Origin: Pseudomonadales bacterium
GTDB taxonomy: Bacteria; Pseudomonadota; Gammaproteobacteria; Pseudomonadales; Azotimanducaceae
Length of the DNA stretch: 64,000 nucleotides
Reading direction: 5' to 3'
Assembly: GCA_023300545.1 (NCBI GenBank)
Contig: JALZVT010000108.1
Location: 1 to 64,000, forward strand
Shown here: positions 4,445 through 10,173 of the stretch, piece after piece
Numbering within the stretch: the first letter of the stretch is position 1
Layout of the letters: every line of letters starts with the position of its first letter
The notes under the pieces: model-generated
Seen by the model: only the letters and a program-made list of their open reading frames with translations
The model's database searches: none
Told to the model about the DNA's origin: nothing
Translations under genes and position numbers: made by a program

Positions 4445-4873
4445 ATGTCTGCCAACATCACCCCTATTGAGCAGATCGAAGACGACCTCAGCTTTTTCGA
4501 CGATTGGGAAGACCGCTATCGTTACTTGATCGACCTGGGTAAGGCGCTACCGCCAATGCCAGAAACCGACAAAACTGACGCCAACATTGTGCACGGCTGT
4601 ACCAGCCAGGTTTGGCTAACCGTCCGCAGTAACCCTGGGCAAAATACAGTCGATCTGTTGATGGATAGCGACGCACTGATCGTTCGGGGTCTACTCGCGC
4701 TGGTGCTAGCCGCTTACGCCAACCGCTCACCAGTCGATATTGTAGAGTTTGATATCAATGCTCTGTTTGAGCGTCTCGACCTGCTTTCGCACTTGAGCAT
4801 GACCCGCGGCAACGGCCTGCGCGCGATGGTTCAACGAGTGCAAATTCTCGCCAGCGAGTTCACACCGCACTAG
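4445..4873 (+). CDS. sufE: SufE, sulfur acceptor for SufS
   Basis: A 142-residue SufE. It accepts persulfide sulfur from SufS C371 on its own conserved cysteine, C52 in VHGCTSQVWL, and delivers it to SufB. The family core runs from the N-terminal helix (FFDDWEDRYRYLIDLGKALP) to the end, with a normal length of about 140. The ATG follows the sufT TAG with no intergenic base, so it should be translated with sufT. It is the last gene of the operon; two adjacent palindromes follow immediately. Confidence 0.95.
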   Translation: MSANITPIEQIEDDLSFFDDWEDRYRYLIDLGKALPPMPETDKTDANIVHGCTSQVWLTVRSNPGQNTVDLLMDSDALIVRGLLALVLAAYANRSPVDIVEFDINALFERLDLLSHLSMTRGNGLRAMVQRVQILASEFTPH

Positions 4874-4911: not shown

Positions 4912-4940
4912 TTGATACTGTATATATATACAGCTATCTT
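4912..4940 (+). promoter_or_regulatory. Sigma70 promoter with LexA (SOS) box in its spacer
   Basis: The -35 TTGATA (4912-4917) and -10 TATCTT (4935-4940) are separated by exactly 17 bp. The spacer begins with CTGTATATATATACAG (4918-4933), a perfect dyad that matches the enterobacterial LexA consensus CTGT-N8-ACAG, including the alternating AT centre, with TA before it. LexA bound here would sit between the two promoter elements. The predicted transcription start is about 4947, essentially on the ATG of the next gene, so the message may be leaderless. Confidence 0.85.
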
Positions 4941-4945
4941 GGCTT

Positions 4946-5416
4946 ATGGCTCACCTCCCAACAGATCAACTGCACAGCACCTTCCGGGTATTTCGGCTAT
5001 TGCCGAATGGCCGCGATCTGAGTGAAATTCCACAGCCAATATGGCAACAAATTGCCAATCATAATCGGCCACTACTACCCGCCAATGGGTCGGTAAAACT
5101 GTTACTGATAAGTGGCCGCGGCCATGGACAAAACAGCCACTGCGAAGCGATTGACGCGCTTCGACTACAAACCGACGACTTTGGCTTTTTAATGACATGG
5201 GACGCATCCCCATCGTCGCTAGAGCTTACCGCGCCACCGAGCGCTCAAACCCAAGGTAAATCTGGTGCTCAAGCCGCTGCCCAGCCCGGCGCTCTGATCG
5301 ATGCCCGCCCTCGGTTCCTACAGCGCTACATCGCGCATCGCCACAGTTGGCTACCCGGCCCCGCACTGCTCGCCGAAGCGCTCACTCTTGCAGGTTATCC
5401 CGTTAACAATCCTTAA
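4946..5416 (+). CDS. SOS-regulated small protein, possible SulA-like division inhibitor
   Basis: A 156-residue protein directly under the LexA-box promoter. There is no signal peptide or membrane segment. Residues about 50-91 (KLLLISGRGHGQ, then EAIDALRLQTDDFGFLMTW) resemble the SulA/ImuA-type stretch in which a short loop is followed by an ALR helix and a hydrophobic strand ending in Trp. That similarity is by eye and weak. The last 60 residues contain an Ala/Gln/Ser-rich linker and a basic patch (RFLQRYIAHRHSWLP) with no recognised family. SOS control is well supported by sequence; the division-inhibitor role is inference. No Shine-Dalgarno is visible, consistent with leaderless translation. 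It could also be an unrelated DNA-damage protein. Confidence 0.65.
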   Translation: MAHLPTDQLHSTFRVFRLLPNGRDLSEIPQPIWQQIANHNRPLLPANGSVKLLLISGRGHGQNSHCEAIDALRLQTDDFGFLMTWDASPSSLELTAPPSAQTQGKSGAQAAAQPGALIDARPRFLQRYIAHRHSWLPGPALLAEALTLAGYPVNNP

Positions 5417-6426: not shown

Positions 6427-7782
6427 TCACCCTCGTTGCAAGCCGTACTTACGCATTTTCTCGACCAATGTGGTGCGACGTATGTGCAAACGATCAGCAG
6501 CTCGAGCCACTACAAAACCAGTGTCCTCCAAAGCTTGGGTAATCAGGTTTTTCTCCAGGGTCGCGAGATAACCCTTCAAATCGAGACCGTTTACCGGCAA
6601 CAAAAGACGCTCTTCCGGGGAACCGTCATCAGAGCGAGTATCAATCGTCGCTGCAGATTCCCCACGAATACGAGCTGGCAAATCTTGCACGTCCAGAACA
6701 CCGTCGCCAATTCTGGGAACGATCTGGCGAACAAAATTCTCCAACTCCACAACATTGCCTGGCCACGCATAGCGATGCAGCACTTTCCAGACCTCCTCCG
6801 AAAGAGCACCGGTTTGAAAAACCGCATTCATCTCGGCCAACATTTCAGGCAATGCGGAAACGTATTCGCGCAACGGTGGCACAGTGATTACTAAACCCTG
6901 GAGGGCGTAAAACAAATCTTCTCGAAACTCGCCGATTTCAACCAGCTGTTCCAAATCTGCTGTGGTACTCGCCAGCAACCTCACATCGCAAGGCGCACCT
7001 CGAGTAGAACCCACGCGCTCTAGGCGTTTCGAACGCAAGAACGCCAACAAACTGGCCTGACTCTGAATACTTAGCGCTTCAATGTCTTCGAGCAGCAACA
7101 CGCCACTTTCCGCCATCTCAATTCGACCGATACGGCGACTTGTAGTACCGGGTAGCGCACCGCCTTCGCACCCGAACAGCTCAATAGCGAGCAAAGACTC
7201 CGGAAAGGTTGCGCAGCTAACCGGCACAAAGGGGCCGTCACCGTACTCAGAACAACGATAAATTGCCTCCGCTATTTTGCGCTTACCGCTACCGGTTTCC
7301 CCGGAGATAAGCACGCACCCTTCTTGATCAGCAATCGCCGCGATACCCACTCGCAGAGAATCAAGCAACGGATGATCACCCGGGAGCTGTGCAACGATCC
7401 CCGCGTGCAGAGGCTGTAAATCACGCGCTTGCGGCGACAGGCGCAGGGCGTGACGCGAACGAACAGATCGCAGGGCTGAGCTCAATTGCTCCAGAGACAA
7501 GGGGCTGCGAATCAGACCCACTGGGGTAATACCGTCAGTTCGCTCAACACCAATGAGCTCTGCGCGCATGTCGCCCACAAGGTCGAGCACTAAAACAGGG
7601 CAACTCGCGTCAATACCAGTGACATTCGCCGGCGGAACCAAGACCACGCCAGCGCCACTGACCCCGGAGAACTGTTCTTCGACACAGGCGTTGATACCTA
7701 AGAACTCAAGAACAGTGGCTAAATCTTGTTTTGCCTTGACGTTTTCAGGCGCAACATTTGTGCCCACTATATGAAGTTGCAT
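6427..7782 (-). CDS. FleQ-like AAA+ regulator with degenerate sigma54 loop
   Basis: A 451-residue regulator: N-terminal receiver-like FleQ domain (about 1-120), AAA+ domain (about 130-370) and Fis-type helix-turn-helix (about 405-447, AADRLHIRRTTLVEKMRKYG). Walker A GETGSGKR is intact at 161-168. The sigma54-contact loop reads GALPGT (208-213) instead of GAFTGA, Walker B is LLLEDI rather than LFLDEI, and the second conserved Arg after FREDL is changed (FYAL for YYRL). These changes argue that it no longer activates sigma54 polymerase directly and may act like VpsR or TyrR. The chosen ATG at 7782 gives the normal FleQ N-terminus; the frame is open to 7953, but that part looks non-coding and would run under the divergent PilZ gene start. 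Confidence 0.85.
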   Translation of the reverse strand: MQLHIVGTNVAPENVKAKQDLATVLEFLGINACVEEQFSGVSGAGVVLVPPANVTGIDASCPVLVLDLVGDMRAELIGVERTDGITPVGLIRSPLSLEQLSSALRSVRSRHALRLSPQARDLQPLHAGIVAQLPGDHPLLDSLRVGIAAIADQEGCVLISGETGSGKRKIAEAIYRCSEYGDGPFVPVSCATFPESLLAIELFGCEGGALPGTTSRRIGRIEMAESGVLLLEDIEALSIQSQASLLAFLRSKRLERVGSTRGAPCDVRLLASTTADLEQLVEIGEFREDLFYALQGLVITVPPLREYVSALPEMLAEMNAVFQTGALSEEVWKVLHRYAWPGNVVELENFVRQIVPRIGDGVLDVQDLPARIRGESAATIDTRSDDGSPEERLLLPVNGLDLKGYLATLEKNLITQALEDTGFVVARAADRLHIRRTTLVEKMRKYGLQRG

Positions 7783-7893: not shown

Positions 7894-8733
7894 GTGCAAA
7901 GTTCCCCTCAGTTTGTGAACCCGTTCACGAACCAAAGACCAAGTCGGGCCCAAAGTCAGCCCAATACCACCCAGTTAACATCGGAAACCCGGACCTACGT
8001 CAATACTGCTCAGATGGGAACCCCACAAGAAAGCAGATACCTGTCCACCCGCGATGAAGTCGCTGAGGTGTTCCGGTTTTTTCGCGATCAGCAATCAGAG
8101 ATCAAACTCCGGTTCAACTCTGACAAATTCGGCGCGCAGTCTTTTACCGCGCGCGTGCTTGACGTGACTGACAGCCAGGTTTTGCTGCAAAACATTATTC
8201 CGCGGGACGGTGTACGGCACCTACTCAGTGGAGAGTCGTTCTCGATATCCGGCCGCGCTGACGGCCTGTTTGTTTACATCTCTGACAATACCGCCCTCCG
8301 AGAACCTGCCAATACGAAGGCACCGGTGCGCAACTGCGTTGCCATCGCGTTGCCAACAACGGTGCTCTATCAACAGCGTCGGCGATCACAGCGAGTTCGC
8401 CTGCCAGCCCAGAACACGGGCCGCCGCTCGCACATTCGTCTGGGTGATATTGCGCCGCTGTATGGCCGCATTCTAGATATCTCATCTTTCGGCGCCAAGA
8501 TTCAGATAGACCCCGCTAAAAAAGACTGCATTCGCAAAGACCAACGACTCGAAAACTGTCAGGTGCATGTGCCAAATCAGCTGTCGATCAACGTGTCTTA
8601 CATTGTGCGCCACGCGATTTTTAACGCCGAGCAGAACACGATGACCTGTGGTCTTGAGCTACTCAAAACCAGCACCGGTGAGCAAGCCCAACTCGACGCC
8701 TTTGTCAGCAAGATCAACAACCACTCGATCTAG
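7894..8733 (+). CDS. YcgR-like PilZ-domain protein (c-di-GMP effector)
   Basis: A 279-residue cytosolic protein. After about 45 disordered residues comes a YcgR-type N-terminal domain (about 55-165), then a PilZ domain. The c-di-GMP signature is present: the RxxxR region QQRRRSQRVRLPA near residue 170 and the DxSxxG motif LDISSFGAKI near residue 197. Proteins of this type bind c-di-GMP and slow the flagellar motor or redirect behaviour. GTG start with GGAG four bases upstream. Its divergent position opposite the FleQ-like gene fits motility or biofilm control. Its 3' end overlaps the next, convergent gene by 4 bp. Confidence 0.85.
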   Translation: MQSSPQFVNPFTNQRPSRAQSQPNTTQLTSETRTYVNTAQMGTPQESRYLSTRDEVAEVFRFFRDQQSEIKLRFNSDKFGAQSFTARVLDVTDSQVLLQNIIPRDGVRHLLSGESFSISGRADGLFVYISDNTALREPANTKAPVRNCVAIALPTTVLYQQRRRSQRVRLPAQNTGRRSHIRLGDIAPLYGRILDISSFGAKIQIDPAKKDCIRKDQRLENCQVHVPNQLSINVSYIVRHAIFNAEQNTMTCGLELLKTSTGEQAQLDAFVSKINNHSI

Positions 8734-9392
8734 CCGCCAGCAGTAAGCCGCCCTTGCCGGTTCTGCCAGCGTCGCCAATCAGCGACACCATCAACGTCCC
8801 ACTGCAACGGCAGCTCTGCCAGCGCCAAACCAGCCTGCACTGCCCGCTCTCGAGTGAATTGTGCAACCCGGTGCGTGCCCCAAGGAATATCAGCAAAGAG
8901 CGCGGGAAACGGTTCGCGCTGACCAATCAATACATAGCCGCCATCTTCTGCAGGACCAAGCACCAACGGCGCCGTCGCCAACAAGGCTGCAGAAGCTTGC
9001 AGGTATTCCACGGATAGATCGCCACAATCAGACCCAATGACAATGCTCGCGGTAGTGGGTCGAGTAGTGGGTCGAGCAGATGCCCGGCTAACTGACTCCG
9101 AGGCATAGAGCATTTTTGCGCCGATATCGCCGCTCGCCTGGGACAACAGAGGCACATCTAGCTCGGCCGCAAATCGCGCAAACCAGGGTGTCGATACATC
9201 ACCGGTCACATGTAGCTCAAACCTCATGCCGGTTGCACAGGCAACTGCCGCGTTGTGCCGCAGCAACTGCAAATGCGCTTGCAGCGCCTGAGGTTGACCA
9301 ATATGCCGCGCAAGCCTCGACTTCACCTGCCCAAGCACAGGCACACGCGCGAGCATAATCAACGTCGGTAAGGTGGGGGTTGTCGTTGTCAT
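8730..9392 (-). CDS. TIGR04282-type (DUF2064) glycosyltransferase
   Basis: A 220-residue protein with an opening (LIMLARVPVLGQVKSRLA) and the segment VIGSDCGDLSVEYLQ that mark the DUF2064 family, GT-A-fold proteins related to nucleotidyl/glycosyl transferases. The loop LGPAEDGGYVLIG is also diagnostic. Family members almost always pair with a TIGR04283 family-2 transferase, and exactly such a gene lies directly upstream here (7 bp gap). Substrate unknown. An upstream ATG at 9413 is possible; 9392 was chosen because the conserved N-terminal strand starts just after it. Confidence 0.85.
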   Translation of the reverse strand: MTTTTPTLPTLIMLARVPVLGQVKSRLARHIGQPQALQAHLQLLRHNAAVACATGMRFELHVTGDVSTPWFARFAAELDVPLLSQASGDIGAKMLYASESVSRASARPTTRPTTASIVIGSDCGDLSVEYLQASAALLATAPLVLGPAEDGGYVLIGQREPFPALFADIPWGTHRVAQFTRERAVQAGLALAELPLQWDVDGVADWRRWQNRQGRLTAGG

Positions 9393-9399
9393 AGCTTGC

Positions 9400-10173
9400 T
9401 CATTTAAGGGCATGGGGCGACAATTCAGCATCTCGAGATGCTGCCTCCGTCCTACTCGAAACACCGTAATAGAGCGCGTGCAAATCGGCCGGATCAGCGC
9501 CAAACGCATAGCGCAGGCGCAGGCGCCACATCAGGAAAATGGTTCGCCAAGTGCCGTTGCGGCGCCAACGGCGCGACGACGTCGTTAGAAAAGGCCGCGC
9601 GCCAGTCGCATCACGGCCCGCAATTGCAGGCTTGCTCAGCACTCGTAAGCGTTTGCTCAGCTCAACATCTTCCATTAACAGCTGGTTGGGCCAGCCCCCC
9701 GCCAACGCAAGTAACCGGCGTGCAACCCAGATGCCCTGATCGCCGGTACAGACCCGAGTAAGCCGAGATCGAGCATTCATCGACCAAGCGACACAACGCA
9801 ACAGGTAACTCGAATGATCAAACCCGATATCAAACCGCCCCCAGGCGCCCTTCTCGCTTGATCTTAGCGCCGCAAGCCCAAACTCCATCAACCAGGCAGC
9901 GGCGGGCAAAACGCCTCGTGAGTCAGCGTGCAGGAACCACAACAGAGAATGCGTCGCTGCGTCTGCGCCTTGTTGTAACTGCACCGAACGTCCAGGAGCG
10001 CCAATCAGCCATTGATCGGCTTGGCTACGCAAAGCGGACGCTGCAACGAGCCCGGGTTCGGCTTCTACCACCACCACCTCAAAGTCAGGTCCACGCAGAG
10101 CTTGTAACTGCGCAAGTAACGGCGCAATCACGAGGGCCTCATCGCGCAAAGGAATGACTATACTAATAGACAC
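9400..10173 (-). CDS. TIGR04283-type family 2 glycosyltransferase
   Basis: A 257-residue family-2 glycosyltransferase. It opens SISIVIPLRDEALVIAPLLAQ, carries FLHADSRGVLP (the DxD-like motif as HADS) and the acceptor-region TGDQGIWVARR with LLMEDVELSKRL, the usual order for this family. The C-terminus (RRNGTWRTIFLMWRLRLRYAFG) is basic and aromatic and may sit at the membrane. GTG start with AGGA seven bases upstream. It forms an operon with the DUF2064 gene. The acceptor is unknown; the pair is often linked to polyprenyl or lipid-type acceptors, but that is inference. Confidence 0.85.
   Translation of the reverse strand: MSISIVIPLRDEALVIAPLLAQLQALRGPDFEVVVVEAEPGLVAASALRSQADQWLIGAPGRSVQLQQGADAATHSLLWFLHADSRGVLPAAAWLMEFGLAALRSSEKGAWGRFDIGFDHSSYLLRCVAWSMNARSRLTRVCTGDQGIWVARRLLALAGGWPNQLLMEDVELSKRLRVLSKPAIAGRDATGARPFLTTSSRRWRRNGTWRTIFLMWRLRLRYAFGADPADLHALYYGVSSRTEAASRDAELSPHALK

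Follow-up and report, generated by a model that had tools for sequence, protein, structure and literature searches.

The open reading frame of 156 codons at positions 4946 to 5416 (forward strand) is, with high probability, a LexA-regulated gene encoding a new, lineage-restricted protein family. Positions refer to the window, that is, the whole stretch of 64,000 nucleotides that was analyzed. The assignment is based on a LexA box embedded in the promoter directly upstream, on the retention of this arrangement before diverged homologues, and on purifying selection acting on the gene. SOS regulons vary strongly between lineages, and many of their members are uncharacterised.

LexA box and promoter

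The −35 hexamer TTGATA (4912 to 4917, forward strand) and the −10 hexamer TATCTT (4935 to 4940, forward strand) were read directly and were also recovered by an independent consensus promoter scan, which reported TTGATA-17-TATCTT at 4912 to 4940 with 9/12 matches. The spacer is filled by CTGTATATATATACAG (4918 to 4933, forward strand), a 16/16 palindrome that is followed by base C at 4934, and the stretch at 4912 to 4948 reads ...cac TTGATA CTGTATATATATACAG C TATCTT GGCTT ATG... CTGTN8ACAG is the gammaproteobacterial LexA box, and it overlaps the promoter at 4912 to 4940. The bare pattern is just mildly enriched in the window (3 sites versus 0.85 expected), which by itself is weak evidence; the other two sites, at 7672 and 16215, have GC-rich cores, and genome-wide the reversed control pattern gave 42 sites against 67 for the true one. 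For the full 16-mer, the expectation is about 5e-6 times per 64 kb and about 3.5e-4 times per genome of 4.78 Mb, so the complete box is not a chance occurrence. Direct reading, promoter scan, and 16-mer statistics thus bear out the original prediction of a −35/−10 pair with a LexA box as its spacer.

The same genome encodes a LexA with HTH and S24 domains. Its imuA gene is preceded by ACTTGATA CTGTGCATTCATACAG CTAATGT, a layout like that at 4912 to 4940, which identifies this arrangement as the lineage's type of SOS promoter. The imuAB-dnaE2 SOS mutagenesis operon of the host therefore shares TTGATA, LexA box, and a downstream hexamer (TAATGT) with the window gene, but ImuA differs as a protein, being about 300 aa long and matching a SulA/RecA-like profile, which the window protein does not. 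The perfect 16-mer CTGTATATATATACAG occurs twice in the genome, in the window and at C31:242. This second copy (C31:242-257; L040/L089 242-257) lies upstream of an ORF at a contig end (MTAIPLAQPAHYPIPGDVSSYTLHALLDEVRLL...) with a GGAGGG-type leader, and this ORF is likely a further SOS gene. Two other LexA-type boxes were observed: CTGTATAAATATACAG at C1:18569 (L027 1501-1516), between a pdxA-like gene and a divergent ORF with a zinc-ribbon-like CxxC...CxxC, and CTGTATATAAACACAG at C19:34890 (L037 1501-1516), before a radical SAM protein of 388 aa (Pfam E=6e-15).

The box was also looked for in front of the homologues, where it is clear in 6 of 8 genera, weak in one, and decayed in one. Box and −35 are retained before homologues of 22-37% identity to the window protein despite divergence of the surrounding DNA, and in most genera the −35 occupies the same place as TTGATA or as TTGAAA/TTGTAA. 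The homologue promoters read cTTGATA CTGTATATTTATCCAG tTACTCT, TTGTAA CTGTATATACATACAG tTACAAT, cTTGATA CTGGATGTATATCCAG cTATGGT, cTTGATA CTGTATGTATATACAG tTATTGT, cTTGAAA CTGTATGTTTGTACAG cTACAGT, and cTTGATA CTGTATACAAATACAG, while the genus with the weak site has just CTGTATATACATCCAT; aligned −10 hexamers are TACTCT, TACAAT, TATGGT, TATTGT, TACAGT, and TATCCT. When 500 nt downstream of sufE were scanned in 34 relatives, boxes matching at 13/16 or better appeared exclusively in those with the gene immediately behind sufE. Together with the encoded LexA and the similar imuA layout, the homologue boxes support the predicted LexA control of this sigma70 promoter. SOS control is not universal within the family, since CTGGACATGCGTACAT stands in place of the box in one genus. 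There (three genomes; L003, L050, L052), TTGATA and TATCCT are kept on either side of the decayed box, suggesting an escape from SOS control.

We infer repression by LexA and induction by damage from established LexA biology combined with the conserved site. The locus would then be a stand-alone SOS gene: a LexA dimer bound to the box within the promoter spacer would block RNA polymerase, DNA damage would lead to RecA-stimulated self-cleavage of LexA, and the released promoter would start transcription at or next to the ATG of the ORF at 4946. The product would be a small soluble cytoplasmic protein. Gene and promoter are carried together as a cassette after sufE.

The open reading frame and its family

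The predicted 156-residue product agrees with the ORF as read, which starts with ATG at 4946 and ends with a stop codon at 5414 to 5416. The ATG begins 5 nt past the −10 hexamer, too close for a Shine-Dalgarno sequence to fit, and transcription is predicted to start at or just inside the start codon. The start codon is thus placed for leaderless translation, as had been proposed, and a leaderless or near-leaderless mRNA is plausible for the window gene. Among the homologue upstream regions, four genera have their best start codon 5-9 nt past the −10; for another three, the distance is 33-37 nt from the box (about 26-30 nt from the −10), with a Shine-Dalgarno-like GGAG in at least one of these three. 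Given this variable distance, leaderlessness is no trait of the family as a whole.

A search of close relatives recovered distant homologues, and a search with a six-member profile yielded 14 credible genomes from eight genera, all belonging to the same family as the host. Two of the 16 genomes matched by the profile were discarded as spurious, one hit being a repeat protein of 575 aa (G005) and the other a fragment of 25 residues (G208). The alignment of the family shows (nearly) invariant residues W33, F36, P42, L53, D77, G80, D119, R121, W135, and A145, and the family proteins have no membrane segment. Purifying selection acts on the gene: in a genus with closely related genomes, diverged pairs gave a dN/dS of 0.10-0.11, and very close pairs, with their small counts, one of 0.10-0.29. 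The six named homologue loci all stem from MAGs of uncultivated Gammaproteobacteria/Pseudomonadales. Searches of 390 genomes from the order and 369 from the class (best 10 candidates per genome) found no members outside the host's own bacterial family, so the protein family appears, within the range searched, to be restricted to certain genera of one Pseudomonadales family.

The product has no match in Pfam or NCBIfam and no credible match in the PDB or PHROGs. There was no Rfam match either. Several low-scoring hits were treated as chance, namely Pfam GlnE (0.13), PADLOC GajA (0.03), and PHROG 9790 (best 0.01, in two members). A PDB hit to RhoGEF 11 at 0.0087, obtained with a six-row profile, was likewise attributed to chance and vanished with twelve rows.

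Relation to SulA and possible role

As a tentative guess, and the one we favor for function, the product may be an SOS effector that binds a protein partner and arrests cell division, performing the job of SulA without homology to it. In a more specific and somewhat doubtful version, the proteins would form a new SOS checkpoint family, unrelated to SulA, that blocks division (or a different step of the cell cycle) in Pseudomonadales whose lineage lost sulA, and they would be made from a leaderless LexA-controlled mRNA. There is precedent for lineage-specific, mutually unrelated small SOS proteins filling one role in YneA, SosA, and SidA (PMC13396833, PMC6851548, PMC4211646). These are small membrane-anchored proteins, in contrast to the window family with its lack of a membrane segment. 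Here, a conserved LexA promoter connects DNA damage with a family that is missing from Pfam, NCBIfam, PHROGs, and the PDB, and its occurrence in a lineage without detectable SulA offers a concrete, inexpensive way to test how these bacteria hold back division when their DNA is damaged.

With regards to SulA itself, no sulA was found in the host genome, where the sole PF03846 match is ImuA. This match was considered as a SulA next to lexA and rejected, since it is an ORF of 306 aa followed by an ImuB-like ORF. The PF03846 matches checked in other members of the host family were ImuA-type too, one of them a fragment of 166 aa at a contig end. As the Pfam SulA model matches ImuA above its cut-off, SulA calls by PF03846 alone are unreliable in this lineage. 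The host lexA (contig C74) is followed by an ORF of 133 aa that belongs to no family and then by topA, without an adjacent sulA. The same lexA-topA neighborhood without SulA is found in many genera of the host family; other families of the order retain an intact lexA-sulA pair. The missing SulA is compatible with the window gene doing its job, but many genera of the host family have neither a lexA-adjacent SulA nor the family gene, which weakens this argument and indicates that the gene is no obligatory SulA replacement. Published comparisons of LexA motifs with imuA/sulA were not found in the literature searched.

The original prediction went further and saw a likeness to SulA in the sequence. 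In a rival reading, the product would be a true but highly diverged SulA relocated from lexA to the end of the suf operon. Like SulA (PF03846; PA3008 of Pseudomonas aeruginosa, 1oft/1ofu), the product is a small, predicted cytoplasmic protein of similar size under a LexA box, and the gene is present where the lexA-adjacent sulA is missing. However, it lies after sufE and does not adjoin lexA, and every comparison for similarity failed: PF03846 gave no match to the window protein at any reported level, a PDB profile search with the family profile returned nothing related to SulA, and hhalign of the 12-member profile against three true SulAs gave a probability of 0.2% over 12 columns. The same tools recognized the SulA of a relative from another family of the order, which matched PF03846 at 5e-12 and found PA3008 SulA (1oft/1ofu) at 2.5e-12. 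The stretch said to recall SulA by an ALR helix and a strand ending in Trp (EAIDALRLQTDDFGFLMTW / DALRLQTDDFGFLMTW) aligns with EPLxLxVDxxGYLxR of the homologues, so neither ALR nor Trp is conserved, and DALRLQTDDFGFLMTW is modeled as strand, not helix. AlphaFold2 models (pLDDT 58 and 69) contain two hairpins with a helix between them, followed by C-terminal helices, an order of strands and helices that, at this low confidence, differs from SulA and does not suggest its RecA-like fold. Fold searches with these models of low to moderate confidence gave no clear PDB match and no SulA among the matches listed (Foldseek reached an E of 0.11 at best; the top VIA match, to exosome subunits, had a Z of 6.1 across 74 residues with an rmsd of 4.1, a range that the tool calls uninformative). 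A relocated SulA is extremely improbable.

The suf neighborhood

The gene directly follows the suf operon, confirming the predicted position. Upstream lie, in this order, sufB (C-terminus only), sufC, sufD, sufS, a sufA-type gene, sufT, and sufE (4445 to 4873, forward strand; Pfam SufE E=4.8e-43), and by synteny sufE is the upstream neighbor of the gene in most carriers. The carriers have the order sufT-sufE-gene, and the arsenosugar glycosyltransferase genes TIGR04282 and TIGR04283 often follow in convergent orientation; in the window they come after intervening ParA/MinD-like, sigma54-regulator, and PilZ genes. In several sister genera without the gene (L093, L097, L101), a gap of about 20 nt separates sufE from TIGR04282; promoter and gene thus act as a single cassette, either present or absent. 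Sister genera with and without the gene provide a natural presence/absence contrast.

This position had suggested a link between Fe-S repair and DNA-damage control, and an SOS-induced DNA repair or Fe-S accessory protein functionally linked to the suf operon would account for a gene found after sufE, directly or one gene away, in 7 of 8 genera. With no terminator-like site between sufE and the gene, read-through from suf would be possible. However, the SOS promoter is located downstream of sufE and directed away from the suf genes, which it does not drive, other genes separate sufE from the family gene in two genera, and genera with a suf operon often lack the gene. The cysteines are not conserved, so there is no Fe-S or thiol motif, and the literature searched contained no LexA-sufE link. 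The connection to Fe-S biology is positional only, and we regard such an accessory role as rather unlikely. Patchy presence at one site, with an empty site in several genera, could also point to an origin from a mobile element or phage, either as a remnant or as cargo: a prophage-type gene under LexA control that came to rest behind sufE, all the more as phages often borrow LexA control. Against this, the viral contigs searched contained no relative of the family, the PHROG search gave no credible match, no mobile genes adjoin, and the one position has been conserved long-term; such an origin is improbable. The preferred reading remains that of a LexA-regulated gene of a new family. The TIGR04282/TIGR04283 pair (8730 to 10173 in the window; also in L093, L097, and L101) was observed as a frequent downstream neighbor of the suf operon in the host family.
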